64,000 nt of DNA from Brevibacillus laterosporus DSM 25 (lineage in GTDB: Bacteria; Bacillota; Bacilli; Brevibacillales; Brevibacillaceae): NCBI RefSeq assembly GCF_002706795.1, contig NZ_CP017705.1:2050001-2114000 (forward strand), given 5' to 3'. Position 1 is the first letter of the stretch, and every line of letters starts with the position of its first letter. The notes beneath the pieces are model-generated. The model saw only the letters and a list, made by a program, of their open reading frames with translations. It was not told where the DNA came from and ran no database searches. Made by a program: the position numbers and the translations under genes. Below are positions 27,917 to 34,551 of this stretch, piece after piece.

Positions 27917-28267
27917 CTAATTTTTACGGGTAATAATAATTGATTCCCCCTCCTGTTGCCTCTTTTCAATATGACTTCCTCCCCAATCACACATAAAATC
28001 AAGAACTTTGGTAAGTGTTTTCCCATAACCACTCAGGGAATACTCGACCTTTGGTGGAACTTGATTGTATACGGTTCGAATAATAATCCCATCTCTTTCA
28101 AGCTCACGCAACTGCTGTGTGAGCATTTTCTGTGTAATATCAGGTATTGCGCGTTTAAGCTCGCTGGTTCTCTTTTTCTCTCCAGTAAGGATGCACAAGA
28201 TAACAACCTTCCACTTTCCTCCGATAACATCAAGCGTCGCTTCAACAGGAAAATTATATTTCTTCAT
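27917..28267 (-). CDS. HxlR-family transcription regulator
   Basis: A 116-residue winged-HTH protein with the family signature VEATLDVIGGKWKVVILCIL and QKMLTQQLRELERDGI. It is a close paralogue of the HxlR protein at 31806-32183. HxlR proteins in Bacillus (YodB, HypR, CatR) sense quinones, aldehydes or oxidants and repress detoxification genes next to them. It is divergent from a quinone/NADPH oxidoreductase gene that is now broken, and the shared upstream region carries a four-copy repeat array that is its likely operator. No N-terminal Cys like that of YodB is present. Confidence 0.9.
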   Translation of the reverse strand: MKKYNFPVEATLDVIGGKWKVVILCILTGEKKRTSELKRAIPDITQKMLTQQLRELERDGIIIRTVYNQVPPKVEYSLSGYGKTLTKVLDFMCDWGGSHIEKRQQEGESIIITRKN

Positions 28268-28284
28268 GATACGCCCCCATAGTT

Positions 28285-28350
28285 ACTTTAAGGTACTTAC
28301 ATACAAAAAAGTTCCTATATTACATTAAAGTATCTACAGCACTTTTAAGT
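28285..28350. repeat. Four-copy operator array between HxlR and the oxidoreductase
   Basis: Ten-base boxes start at 28285 (ACTTTAAGGT), 28303 (ACAAAAAAGT), 28322 (ACATTAAAGT) and 28341 (ACTTTTAAGT), a spacing of 18, 19 and 19 bp. The common pattern is AC-N6-GT with an AT core. The layout copies that upstream of the second HxlR gene, including a shared CCTATATT spacer. Confidence 0.6.
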
Positions 28351-28461
28351 ACGTTCTTTCTAATTTGTGACATATATTACATACTAGCATTAGAAATAAA
28401 GCTACGGAATGGCCATTCCTGTATTCTGCTAAACACCTTTTTCGAGGAGAGAAATAAACTC

Positions 28462-28989
28462 ATGAAAACTCTTGTGATTGTCGCACACCCCAGTATTGAA
28501 GATTCTCGCATCAATAAAAGATGGGTGCAGGAATTAACAAAACATTCAGATATCATTACCGTCCACCAATTATATTCAACCTATCCTGACTGGACATTTC
28601 AAATTGAACACGAGCAAAAACTAGTGATGGAGCATGAACGTGTTATTTTCCAATTCCCTTTCTATTGGTATAGTTCACCCCCATTACTCAAAAAATGGCT
28701 TGACGATGTTTTTACCCATGGATGAGCATATGGTTCTCTAGGAGATAAGCTACAAGGTAAGGAATTAGGTCTCGCTATCTCAACTGGTGTGCTTCAAGCT
28801 GATTATCAGGCTGGAGGAGCCAATCAATTCACTTTGAGTGAACTGACAAGACCTTTTCAGGCAACCTGCATTTATACAGGCATGAAATTTATACCTATAT
28901 TTTCTATTTATGGTGCTGAACATCACCTTACAGATGGAGAAGTAGAACAAAGCGCTATAGATTATGTGACACATATCTTGAAATCTTAA
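28462..28989 (+). pseudogene. Flavodoxin-fold NAD(P)H oxidoreductase with an in-frame stop codon
   Basis: The full frame encodes about 175 residues of a KefF/MdaB/YwrO-type NAD(P)H:quinone oxidoreductase (MKTLVIVAHPSIEDSRINKR at the start; FPFYWYSSPPLLKKWLDDVF as the flavin-binding region). A TGA at 28723-28725 interrupts it at HG-stop-AYGS, where the family normally has Trp or Phe (HGWAYG/HGFAYG). A single TGG to TGA change explains it. The reading frame is otherwise intact to its end, which implies a recent mutation, error, or readthrough. It has a good ribosome-binding site (CGAGGAG) and the HxlR operator array upstream. Confidence 0.88.
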
Positions 28990-30898: not shown

Positions 30899-31438
30899 TT
30901 CTGAATTTCTCCTTCTGTCATATTAAATAATTTTCACAACTGTAAAATATCACAGAATCCGATCTATTTCAAATTATAACTTTAAATCGTTCGTGTTTTT
31001 ATGTATTTTATAAAAACAAAAGGTTATATCATTCGTATTTTAAAGGTAAAACTAGAATTTATTGGTTTGATTCTTAGTTGAAAGTGGGTACATTTCGTAT
31101 ATTTTAAGGTACATATAATCACTTTTTTCATAAAAAATATCCAGATTTATAACTGGCTATTCCATACACTAGTTATCAAAACTAAAAGCCCATGATCCCC
31201 ATCTATTTTAGGAAATCACAGGCTTTTCAATTGGTTAGATATCTATAATTACGGAATAGACTTTGTTACGGTGTTTACCTCAACTCTCATAGTCAAGGTA
31301 AACACCTTGCTCATACTGTCATCAATCAGTAATTTGACACGTGAGACGCTGTTTTACACATGATTTTTATTTGGAAGTGTGCAATATACCCTATCACATT
31401 TTACACCCAAAACCACGTTGTGCTGTTGCCCTTACATA
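30899..31438. other. 540-bp interval with three ACGAA-type repeats and hairpins
   Basis: On the minus strand the interval carries CACGAACGAT (30986-30995), TACGAATGAT (31028-31037) and TACGAAATGT (31090-31099) upstream of the permease. They resemble single PurR boxes (CGAAC core), but spacing and orientation differ from the Bacillus subtilis pair. Also present are a terminator-like hairpin at 31184-31227 (AAAAGCC/GGCTTTT) and a perfect 11-bp hairpin GGTGTTTACCT/AGGTAAACACC at 31270-31306. No purine riboswitch core was found. Confidence 0.45.
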
Positions 31439-31573
31439 CTAATGTTTGCAAGGATGATGTGGCTTTCTAACAGGTTTTTTTCTTTTTTTCTTGACCCAGC
31501 ATTTACAGACCAATACTACCTTCTTCTTTACATTCTTCTTTACATGCTTCTTTTTATGATGGAATTTGCTCAT
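31439..31573 (-). CDS. 44-residue Lys/His-rich small protein
   Basis: The gene starts at the ATG complementary to 31571-31573 and follows a strong GGAGGTGAG site at a spacing of a few bases. The product is extremely basic: 17 Lys, 2 Arg and 6 His in 44 residues, with three Cys, starting MSKFHHKKKHVKKNVKKKVV and ending KPHHPCKH. There is no signal peptide or membrane helix. Such composition occurs in spore-coat/core proteins, nucleic-acid-binding proteins and cationic antimicrobial peptides; sequence alone does not decide. The hairpin at 31184-31227 is a likely terminator. Confidence 0.65.
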   Translation of the reverse strand: MSKFHHKKKHVKKNVKKKVVLVCKCWVKKKRKKPVRKPHHPCKH

Positions 31574-31747
31574 GTGTCTCACCTCCATCGTCTGACTTGC
31601 TATATTCTATGTTGCAGTTCACGACATGTACTAGACAAAAGACAACCTTTTTAAAATTTGGATTCATGTGAAGGTGGAATAAGTGGGTTTTCGACCTCTA
31701 ACCGTTCAGAAGCGAAACGGGGACTTAAGAATAATCAGGGGTTAGGA

Positions 31748-31780
31748 AAAAGCCTACGAGTAATTCCTTCGTAGGCTTTT
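31748..31780 (-). terminator. Terminator of the second HxlR gene
   Basis: AAAAGCCTACGA and TCGTAGGCTTTT form a perfect 12-bp stem with a 9-nt loop, 26 bp past the HxlR stop codon. Confidence 0.85.
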
Positions 31781-31805
31781 AGAGTATCTTTATTTAGGTA
31801 ATGCC

Positions 31806-32183
31806 TTACATGTCTTTATCCCTATTATTTAATATGTTATCTTCCAATACAGCGAATTTATCTCCGTATTCCTTAACAATATGCTTCTCTCCCCATGTAC
31901 ATAAGGAATCCAATATCGGCTTTAAGCTCCACCCGTACTCACTTAGCTCATACTCCACCTTTGGAGGAACCTGATTATAGATAATCCGATTTACAATGCC
32001 GTCCTGTTCTAATTCTCTAAGCTGTTGCGTTAACATTTTTTGTGTAATGCTTGGCATAATACGTTTTAAGTCACTTGTGCGTTTTTTCCCATGAGTTAAA
32101 TGGCAGAGAATCACACATTTCCATTTACCGCCGATGACTTCTAGGGTCGCTTCAACGGAAATATTATATTTTTTCTTAATCAC
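31806..32183 (-). CDS. HxlR-family regulator (YtcD-like)
   Basis: A 125-residue winged-HTH protein starting at a GTG (32183) after AGGAGGGATAAGCT. It shares most of its core with the HxlR protein at 27917-28267 (QKMLTQQLRELEQDGI, YNQVPPKVEYELSEYG). It faces an MFS exporter and an aldo/keto reductase, the same trio as ytcD-ytbD-ytbE of Bacillus subtilis. It likely represses the exporter/reductase operon and itself through the 19-bp array at 32214-32280, releasing in response to an electrophile or toxin. Confidence 0.9.
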   Translation of the reverse strand: MIKKKYNISVEATLEVIGGKWKCVILCHLTHGKKRTSDLKRIMPSITQKMLTQQLRELEQDGIVNRIIYNQVPPKVEYELSEYGWSLKPILDSLCTWGEKHIVKEYGDKFAVLEDNILNNRDKDM

Positions 32184-32213
32184 AGCTTATCCCTCCTAAA
32201 CATGGATATGGGA

Positions 32214-32280
32214 ACTTTTTAGTACCTATATTACTTTTTAGTAAGTATATTACTTTCTGGTTCATATATTACTTTTTAGT
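32214..32280. repeat. Array of four 19-bp direct repeats, likely HxlR operator
   Basis: Boxes ACTTTTTAGT at 32214, 32233 and 32271 and ACTTTCTGGT at 32252 recur with an exact period of 19 bp, separated by 9-bp spacers that mostly end TATATT. The array fills the control region between the HxlR and MFS genes, so it probably regulates both. Confidence 0.75.
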
Positions 32281-32358
32281 GCGTACTATTCTTTTTTATT
32301 ATAATAAATCATAATAGCATCTACCGGCCGGTAATACCATACTGTAGGAGTGGAGCGA

Positions 32359-33570
32359 ATGTTATTAGATCGAAAGAAAAGCACGTTGGCGCTCCTTGCG
32401 TTAGCGATAAGTGCATTTGCAATTGGAACAACAGAATTCATCAGTGTGGGACTACTTCCGCTTATCGCTGATGACTTAAATATATCCGTTTCAACATCAG
32501 CATTAACCGTTACTTTATATGCGCTAGGGGTAACTTTTGGGGCTCCGATTTTAACGTCCCTAACCTCTAGCATCCCACGCAAATCATTATTATTTTGGAT
32601 TATGCTGGTTTTTATTATAGGAAATACTCTTGCCGCCACTGCAAATGGGATTGTCATATTGCTGATAGCGCGAATCATCTCCGCATTTTCACATGGTGTA
32701 TTTATGTCAATTGGTTCCACGATCGCCGCTGATCTGGTACCAGAAAACCGCAGGGCTAGTGCTATCGCCGTTATGTTTTCCGGACTTACAGTGGCGACTG
32801 TTACTGGGGTTCCCTTGGGTACATTTATTGGACAGCAATTAGGATGGCGTGCTGCTTTTATTGGAATCGTCGTAATTGGCATCCTAGCTTTCATAGCCAA
32901 TATGATTTTAATTCCTTCCGATCTGCGTAAAGGAACCAAAACACCACTGCGAGAACAGCTTAAACTGGTTACTAATGGGAGATTGCTCCTTGCGTTCATC
33001 ATTACTGCTATTGGCTATGGGGGCACATTTGTTGTCTTTACTTATTTATCCCCTTTACTTCACGATATTACTGGATTTAAGGAAACGACCGTTGCCATCA
33101 TTCTTCTTGGATATGGAATTGCTATTGCGATTGGAAACGTCATTGGTGGAAAAGCAGCCAACCGCAACCCTATTTCCGCCTTATTCTATATGTTTACTAT
33201 ACAATTCATTGTACTCTTCATCTTAACGTTCACCGCTCCGTTTAAAGCTGCCGGTCTAGTAACCATCTTCTTCATGGGCTTATTAGCTTTTATGAACGTG
33301 CCCGGATTACAGGTCTACGTGGTCATGTTGGCTGAACGTTATGCACCGAAAGCGGTAGATGTAGCTTCCGCTATGAATATCGCAGCTTTCAACGCAGGTA
33401 TCGCAATCGGAGCATACTTGGGTGGAATCGTTACTGATAAACTCGGACTGATTCATACAGCCTGGGTAGGAGCCTTGATGGTTTTGGGAGCGGTTATCTT
33501 AACAGGTTTGGCTCGTGCTCTAGAAAGAAAAGATAAGACTACCAACAAAAATGAGCCAGCTCGTTTGTAA
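32359..33570 (+). CDS. MFS drug/metabolite exporter (YtbD/AraJ-like)
   Basis: A 403-residue, 12-helix transporter of the DHA1 type with AIGTTEFISVGLLPLIADDL at the first helix and motif ALGVTFGAPILTSL. I chose the ATG at 32359, 8 nt after AGGAG; the upstream GTG at 32350 falls in that site. It should export a small compound with proton antiport. An aldo/keto reductase gene follows after about 140 bp, with only a weak hairpin (33608-33638) between, so both may be under control of the divergent HxlR gene. Confidence 0.88.
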   Translation: MLLDRKKSTLALLALAISAFAIGTTEFISVGLLPLIADDLNISVSTSALTVTLYALGVTFGAPILTSLTSSIPRKSLLFWIMLVFIIGNTLAATANGIVILLIARIISAFSHGVFMSIGSTIAADLVPENRRASAIAVMFSGLTVATVTGVPLGTFIGQQLGWRAAFIGIVVIGILAFIANMILIPSDLRKGTKTPLREQLKLVTNGRLLLAFIITAIGYGGTFVVFTYLSPLLHDITGFKETTVAIILLGYGIAIAIGNVIGGKAANRNPISALFYMFTIQFIVLFILTFTAPFKAAGLVTIFFMGLLAFMNVPGLQVYVVMLAERYAPKAVDVASAMNIAAFNAGIAIGAYLGGIVTDKLGLIHTAWVGALMVLGAVILTGLARALERKDKTTNKNEPARL

Positions 33571-33708
33571 GCTCTATGTTTAGATGATCGTTCTTGTTTA
33601 GAAGACAGAGGCTCGTTAGATACTGGCTACCGAGCCTCCGTTATTGATCATTTGTACAGCGTTTTTTCAGCACAGTATATGTAAAAAATGATATAGGAGG
33701 CTATTATA

Positions 33709-34551
33709 ATGGCAAAAAATTTACAAGCTACAACAACACTACACAACGGCACTAAAATGCCTTGGTTTGGAATCGGAGTATTTAAAGTAGAAGAAGGTTC
33801 GGAGTTGGTATCAGCAGTAAAATCAGCTATTAAGCATGGTTACCGCAGTATCGATACAGCTGCTATTTATGGAAATGAAACCAGTGTAGGGCAGGCGATT
33901 CACGAAGGCATTCAAGAAACAAACTTACCTAGAGAAGACCTCTTTGTAACTTCAAAGGTTTGGAATGCCGATCTGGGATACGAAGCCACACTCGCTGCTT
34001 TCGAAACAAGTCTAGATAAACTCGGATTAGAGTACCTCGATTTGTATCTCATTCATTGGCCTGTGAAGGGTAAGTATAAGGAAGCTTGGAGAGCACTAGA
34101 GAAGCTATATAAAGATGGACGTGTAAAGGCAATCGGGGTAAGTAATTTCCAAATCCATCATCTTGAGGATTTGATGGAAGAAGCTGAAATAAAACCAATG
34201 ATAAACCAAGTGGAATTCCATCCATACCTGACGCAAAAGGAATTGATTACTTTCTGCCGGGCGCATGATATTCAAATGGAAGCATGGTCTCCATTAATGC
34301 AAGGTCAATTGTTGGATAACCCTGTATTACAGGAAATTGCTGATAAGCACGGCAAAACAGTTGCCCAAGTCATTCTTCGTTGGGATCTCCAGCATGGTGT
34401 TATCACGATTCCAAAGTCTACAAAGGAGCATCGGATTGTTGAAAATGCATCCGTGTTTGATTTCGAGTTAACAAAAGAAGAGATGGATCGCATTGATGCT
34501 TTGAATCAAAATCATCGAGTCGGTCCAGATCCGGACAACTTTGATTTTTAA
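33709..34551 (+). CDS. Aldo/keto reductase (YtbE-like)
   Basis: A 280-residue TIM-barrel NADPH-dependent reductase. The catalytic tetrad is visible in SIDTAAIYGNE (Asp, Tyr), VTSKVWN (Lys) and LIHWP (His), with the coenzyme-binding end IPKSTKEHRIVEN. It resembles Bacillus subtilis YtbE/YvgN, which reduce glyoxals and other reactive aldehydes. Strong TAGGAGG site 8 nt before the ATG. Its neighbours suggest it detoxifies the signal sensed by the HxlR regulator. Confidence 0.93.
   Translation: MAKNLQATTTLHNGTKMPWFGIGVFKVEEGSELVSAVKSAIKHGYRSIDTAAIYGNETSVGQAIHEGIQETNLPREDLFVTSKVWNADLGYEATLAAFETSLDKLGLEYLDLYLIHWPVKGKYKEAWRALEKLYKDGRVKAIGVSNFQIHHLEDLMEEAEIKPMINQVEFHPYLTQKELITFCRAHDIQMEAWSPLMQGQLLDNPVLQEIADKHGKTVAQVILRWDLQHGVITIPKSTKEHRIVENASVFDFELTKEEMDRIDALNQNHRVGPDPDNFDF

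Follow-up and report, generated by a model that had tools for sequence, protein, structure and literature searches.

A predicted four-box operator array with a 19-bp period beside a YtcD-type HxlR regulator gene in Brevibacillus laterosporus

In Brevibacillus laterosporus DSM 25, four short dyads stand in a row between a ytcD-like regulator gene and a divergent gene for an MFS exporter. What might such a row be, and is it a peculiarity of this genome or a property of the regulator that it accompanies? We examined the array in a 64,000-nucleotide stretch of contig NZ_CP017705.1 (the window) and compared it with the upstream regions of related regulator genes. The features of the window are collected in Table 1.

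Table 1. Features of the window (coordinates within the 64,000-nucleotide stretch).
Feature	Coordinates	Strand	Remark
Paralogous HxlR regulator	27917..28267	-	68% identical over residues 2-108
Paralog's own array	28284..28351	.	dyads 28284, 28302, 28321, 28340
ytcD-like HxlR/DUF24 regulator	31806..32183	-	125 aa, GTG start; presumed array binder
Box 1, AACTTTTTAGTA	32213..32224	.	regulator-proximal
Box 2, TACTTTTTAGTA	32232..32243	.	sole perfect TACTNNNNAGTA match in window
Box 3, TACTTTCTGGTT	32251..32262	.	degenerate copy
Box 4, TACTTTTTAGTG	32270..32281	.	target-proximal, 35 bp to TATTAT element
Lone half-site TACT (AGTA on regulator strand)	32284..32287	.	14 bp from box 4
CATAAT, candidate -10 of exporter gene	32310..32315	+	overlaps regulator's candidate -10; no good -35
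TGCTATTAT, candidate extended -10 of regulator gene	32311..32319	-	TG-C-TATTAT
CTACCGGCCGGTAA dyad	32321..32334	.	predicted exporter start site
MFS exporter gene, ytbD-like	32359..33570	+	presumed target; PF07690 E 9.8e-49
Aldo/keto reductase, ytbE-like	33709..34551	+	PF00248 E 1.7e-60

An earlier note, made from the letters of the window, had proposed four like boxes at an exact 19-bp period. The number and the period are borne out: each unit is a dyad, TACTNNNNAGTA, with cores at 32214 (ACTTTTTAGT), 32233 (ACTTTTTAGT), 32252 (ACTTTCTGGT) and 32271 (ACTTTTTAGT), at successive intervals of 19, 19 and 19 bp. The likeness of the copies holds for boxes 1, 2 and 4, the third being degenerate. Compared with itself at lag 19 without reference to any motif, the array matches at 43 of 57 positions, a figure that no shuffle reached: the maximum was 35 over 2000 dinucleotide-shuffled versions of the intergenic region and 36 over 20 of the whole window. 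Tandem Repeats Finder reported a period of 19 with 4.4 copies and a score of 101, the top of its 13 rows in the 64 kb. Its partial fifth copy was rejected as a box; it contains instead the lone half-site TACT, a counterpart of which is kept in 88 of the 95 anchored arrays of relatives (see below). The single box pattern is at chance level in the window (27 matches with at most one mismatch, 26.88 expected), so the evidence for the array is its regular spacing. At 10.5 bp per turn, 19 bp corresponds by arithmetic to 1.81 turns, which would set neighbouring dimers about 69 degrees apart.

The regulator gene encodes a member of the HxlR/DUF24 family (PF01638, E = 3.6e-39, 133 bits against a cut-off of 20.8). 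The best of its 15 matches to solved chains, and the closest solved structure, is Bacillus subtilis YtcD (2hzt, E = 1.7e-52). Among the characterised relatives, HypR (4a5n, E = 2e-33) and HxlR (7bzd, E = 3.6e-30) of B. subtilis, of the same Pfam family, score far better than YodB (E = 1.1e-14) and QsrR (E about 1e-7). Closest to YtcD and facing a divergent MFS exporter gene, the window gene is classed as a YtcD orthologue. The neighbours of ytcD in B. subtilis are ytbD and ytbE. In the window, the ATG of the exporter gene at 32359 follows AGGAG (the listed open reading frame starts at an in-frame GTG, 32350), and the aldo/keto reductase gene is likely in the same operon. The genome holds six matches to the window regulator, one of them partial and with stops.

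The literature drawn on here (PMC7835342, PMC6798810, PMC9239112, PMC8457756, PMC6943732, PMC4776306 and PMC10458429) describes HxlR, of the window regulator's family, as a dimeric winged-helix protein and gives YodB, CatR and QsrR, also of this family, oxidoreductases as targets. In these papers HxlR uses Cys11, and YodB and CatR an N-terminal redox cysteine. The first cysteine of the window regulator is residue 23, in MIKKKYNISVEATLEVIGGKWKC; it therefore lacks this feature and is not classed as a redox sensor of the YodB/CatR type.

Arrays with a 19-bp step are not peculiar to this genome. The first relatives were the best 80 of 564 from a protein scan, mostly from Paenibacillus with some from Cohnella, Brevibacillus, Bacillus and Ectobacillus. 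With the window and its paralog they gave 82 upstream regions, which contain 97 dyad pairs at lag 19, whereas 50 shuffles averaged 0.2 and never exceeded 2. A class-wide search added 70 relatives (the 30 best and 40 chosen to spread over genera), and the resulting 151 loci (80, 70 and the window) were reduced to 113 by removal of near-duplicates; the paralog lies outside the 113. Loci were chosen by protein similarity, and the array was not a criterion. Two or more boxes occur in 109 of the 113 loci (two in 54, three in 44, four in 10 and five in one; three loci have one box and one has none), whereas a shuffled set yields about 11 loci with a chain of two or three. The 176 spacings in the 113-locus set are 19 bp in 161 cases, 18 bp in 10 and 20 bp in 5, and the 19-bp spacing persists while the sequences of the boxes vary between loci.

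The conservation, which the earlier note had proposed to check among strains, extends far wider, and the view of the array as exceptional for its regulator is not supported: several dyads per promoter, rather than the single inverted repeat that the note gave as usual for HxlR operators, are the rule in the YtcD-type clade, in which two or three boxes are the norm and four is high. The nearest congeneric loci (L007 and L008) have four boxes each, and the printed sequence of L024, from B. laterosporus, is identical to that of L008. Regulator and target are divergent in 110 of the 113 loci, and 103, the window included, have an MFS homologue; these orientations were assigned by a longest-ORF rule, without annotation. 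The co-directional loci L268, L284 and L304 have at most one box each, as does L286, although it is divergent.

The end of the array that faces the target is fixed. A TATTAT-like element (at least 5 of 6 positions) lies exactly 35 bp from the target-proximal box in 95 of the 109 arrays, and TG-N precedes it in 84 of these 95 anchored arrays. At the other end, the last box stands anywhere from 4 to 224 bp away from where the regulator starts. With one end fixed and the other loose, the array seems tied to the promoter element and to have gained its copies towards the regulator gene. Distances of 37 bp to the -10, seen in the 82-region set, were rejected as the product of a loose pattern; tests on the larger set gave 35. 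The consensus on the regulator strand, which writes strong and weak columns alike, reads CCGGCCGG.AAATG.TATTATG, 15 weakly conserved bases, and AATGAA.AGTACGTACTTT.AAGT.CTATAGGTACT.AAAAGT.CC. The last box tends to precede CCTATA, the mirror of the TATAGG before the other boxes, and so the box, not the linker, is the better candidate for the centre of a 24-bp dyad.

Of the two candidate -10 elements, the one reading towards the regulator gene is the better formed. Matches to a -35 are poor both ways (the best match averages 3.03 and 3.05 of 6, against 2.50 at random), so that the exporter does not stand out by its weak -35, and a sigma-70 scan returned one weak site compared with 2.6 expected in shuffles. 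Between 32310 and 32319, -10-like elements overlap on the two strands, possibly as a shared divergent promoter. A search of positions 31000-34000 for structured RNA in the leader gave no Rfam match at the gathering threshold. At the predicted exporter start, the CCGGCCGG dyad is exact in 41 of the 95 anchored loci; within one mismatch, TTACCGGCCGGTAA occurs at one place in the genome, the exporter-start dyad itself. One relative (L078) has CCGACCGGTCGG at this position, which resembles TetR-family sites, and a second regulator may act there.

Taking the spacing, the anchoring and the constant company of the regulator gene together, we consider it fairly probable that the four boxes form an operator on which several dimers of the YtcD regulator bind cooperatively, with activation of the exporter operon as the likeliest use of the stack and autorepression allowed by it. 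The part of the earlier note that assigned the array, as a strictly periodic operator, to the adjacent HxlR regulator is upheld as a prediction. The boxes would be four adjacent dimer sites, one dimer per dyad, each comprising TACTNNNNAGTA with its outer arms (about TATAGG-TACT-NNNN-AGTA-CCTATA). The 7-bp linkers would serve as outer arms in common, and neighbouring dimers would touch at the 19-bp step and bind cooperatively. The earlier note had suggested that dimers could polymerise along the DNA; since the arrays are short (2-5 boxes), a cooperative stack of a few dimers is a better fit than open-ended polymerisation.

Such a stack would be anchored by the target-proximal box, upstream of an exporter promoter with a poor -35. 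With CATAAT taken as the -10, arithmetic puts the predicted exporter start near 32322 and the box centres at -46.5, -65.5, -84.5 and -103.5, and the regulator could from there activate the exporter and reductase operon in response to a signal, as for HxlR and HypR. The inducer would probably be an electrophile. We regard activation of the exporter operon as somewhat more likely than repression, because the boxes are placed upstream and the regulator is akin to HxlR and HypR. The same stack could also repress its own gene, since TG-N-TATTAT faces the regulator and the boxes lie in its predicted leader, about 28-85 nt downstream of the predicted regulator start. A more elaborate scheme, which we think rather unlikely in full, is that a short YtcD filament, cooperative through a 19-bp, 1.8-turn step and 7-bp linkers in common, sits 35 bp from one common -10 and would switch two overlapping divergent promoters oppositely, with the number of boxes tuning the threshold.

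Three other accounts of the array have to be weighed. The stack could be a repressor array that covers the edge of the exporter -35 and the regulator leader and is released by an electrophile, as for YodB, CatR and QsrR, an account that we hold to be possible if doubtful. Redox-released repressors exist in the HxlR/DUF24 family according to the literature drawn on, box 4 directly adjoins the -35 position, and the candidate -10 of the regulator has the boxes downstream of it; moreover, koreenceine is reported to raise a gene annotated ytcD in two bacteria, which derepression would fit too. The boxes nevertheless seldom extend over the exporter -10 or start: among the 109 arrays, one (L276) was flagged with a further 19-bp pair on the exporter's side of the -10, a count of pairs and not of single boxes. 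The nearest characterised relatives also speak against repression, the papers drawn on calling HxlR a positive regulator and HypR activated, although those papers likewise call MarR/DUF24 family members repressors, HypR included.

The link between YtcD and the array comes from sequence, and another regulator might bind the boxes, ytcD being adjacent merely since both control the exporter. This is improbable, given that the array accompanies ytcD-type genes across target families, the window paralog included, and that a strict two-box test tracks identity to the window regulator (passed by 104 of 121 loci at 70% or more, 2 of 14 at 60-69% and 2 of 39 below 60%). For this count, removal of near-duplicates also discarded L162 and L165, which have a 19-bp pair, and retained L158, which lacks one. 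Lastly, an AT-rich unit whose copy number ranges from 2 to 5 could be a neutral tandem repeat born of slippage. Here the units diverge, yet the dyads, the 19-bp step and the 35-bp register persist across many genera, with lag-19 pairs as far above the shuffles as given above; this conservation contradicts slippage and leaves it a very slim chance.

Some loci depart from the common layout. The window's own paralog, the second-best match to the regulator in the genome, lies with its array 4 kb from the main one; the steps are 18, 19 and 19 bp, and the gene faces a divergent flavodoxin-like gene. That oxidoreductase gene (28462-28989) has one in-frame TGA, after which the frame is open to the next stop. 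Elsewhere, the non-MFS targets facing arrays are an aldo/keto reductase (L075), short-chain dehydrogenases (L303, L310), flavodoxin-like proteins (L302, L136) and a nitroreductase (L144). Both L144 and L145 have, read by eye, three dyads at 19 bp with half-sites ACG/CGT and a nitroreductase gene downstream. The presumed recognition helix hardly varies across the YtcD set (Q53 in 148 of 150, R56 in 150 of 150), and the regulators of these two loci have Val for Gln at 53 and Lys for Arg at 56, plus other changes; the pairing of a changed half-site with the Gln53/Arg56 changes is suggestive only, coming as it does from one lineage. The whole module of -10 and array is present twice, in tandem, at L273, and at L276 the boxes of the two pairs flank the -10 on both sides. 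L276 fits either sign of control, and L273 favours neither.

The 19-bp step fades away from the YtcD type. In a motif-free test of the first YtcD set, lag 19 was the top lag at 30 of the 46 loci; in the second set (n = 16), lag 19 (4.8) and lag 38 (5.1) scored about equally. The 60 distant loci were hand-picked from those listed to spread over similarity. In the distant groups, lag 19 was top in group A, though at just 3.7 of 18, and scored 1.6 of 18 in group C; it was outside the five leading lags in groups B (16), G (13) and the phylum set D (23), where the single locus over the lag-19 threshold (L231) is a YtcD-type place (87% identity). Lag tests by palindromes only are weak: with full arms, lag 19 came third in the YtcD set (4 of 46, behind lags 45 and 26 with 11 and 9), and with looser arms it led there (16 of 46, shuffles 0.33) and did not lead in the distant groups. 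With so little 19-bp signal at distant loci, we do not extend the array to HxlR regulators at large.

A different common element, about AGTACGCAC, is seen at L149, L153, L178 and other distant loci, followed in L149 and L153, by eye, by a second GTAT...ATAC-like dyad about 19 bp beyond; in the groups carrying it, the lag tests raised no 19-bp step above other lags. At L309, which we take to be the hxlR orthologue, there is one box-like match and no 19-bp pair. HxlR itself has two binding sites. A search of the B. laterosporus genome with the two-box pattern (at most 3 mismatches) gave 207 and 212 matches versus 384 and 346 for the reversed control, and so revealed no regulon. Among the matches listed, of 419, the places with one mismatch outside the two HxlR loci are 445859 and 4571793, and the latter, at a gene end with a likely terminator, was judged a chance match and rejected as an operator.

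A locus whose protein is 98% identical to YtcD of B. subtilis (L238) has two boxes upstream, TACTTGAAAGTG and CACTTTTTGGTA, 19 bp apart, compared with four in the window. We found no description of a YtcD operator or of 19-bp HxlR arrays in the literature searched, which included few subscription papers. An HxlR regulon in lactic acid bacteria is listed in PMC3616900, so that a regulon database may already hold related sites. If the stack is real, it would resemble that of BldC of Streptomyces, described as a MerR-like protein that forms cooperative multimers on direct repeats, although BldC belongs to a different family. For YtcD, the array provides a testable operator code (TACTNNNNAGTA, a 19-bp step and 35 bp to the -10) and would place the exporter and the reductase in what is likely a response to electrophiles. 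It also provides, in laboratory B. subtilis, a clean system for asking whether dimers that are off phase on the DNA cooperate.
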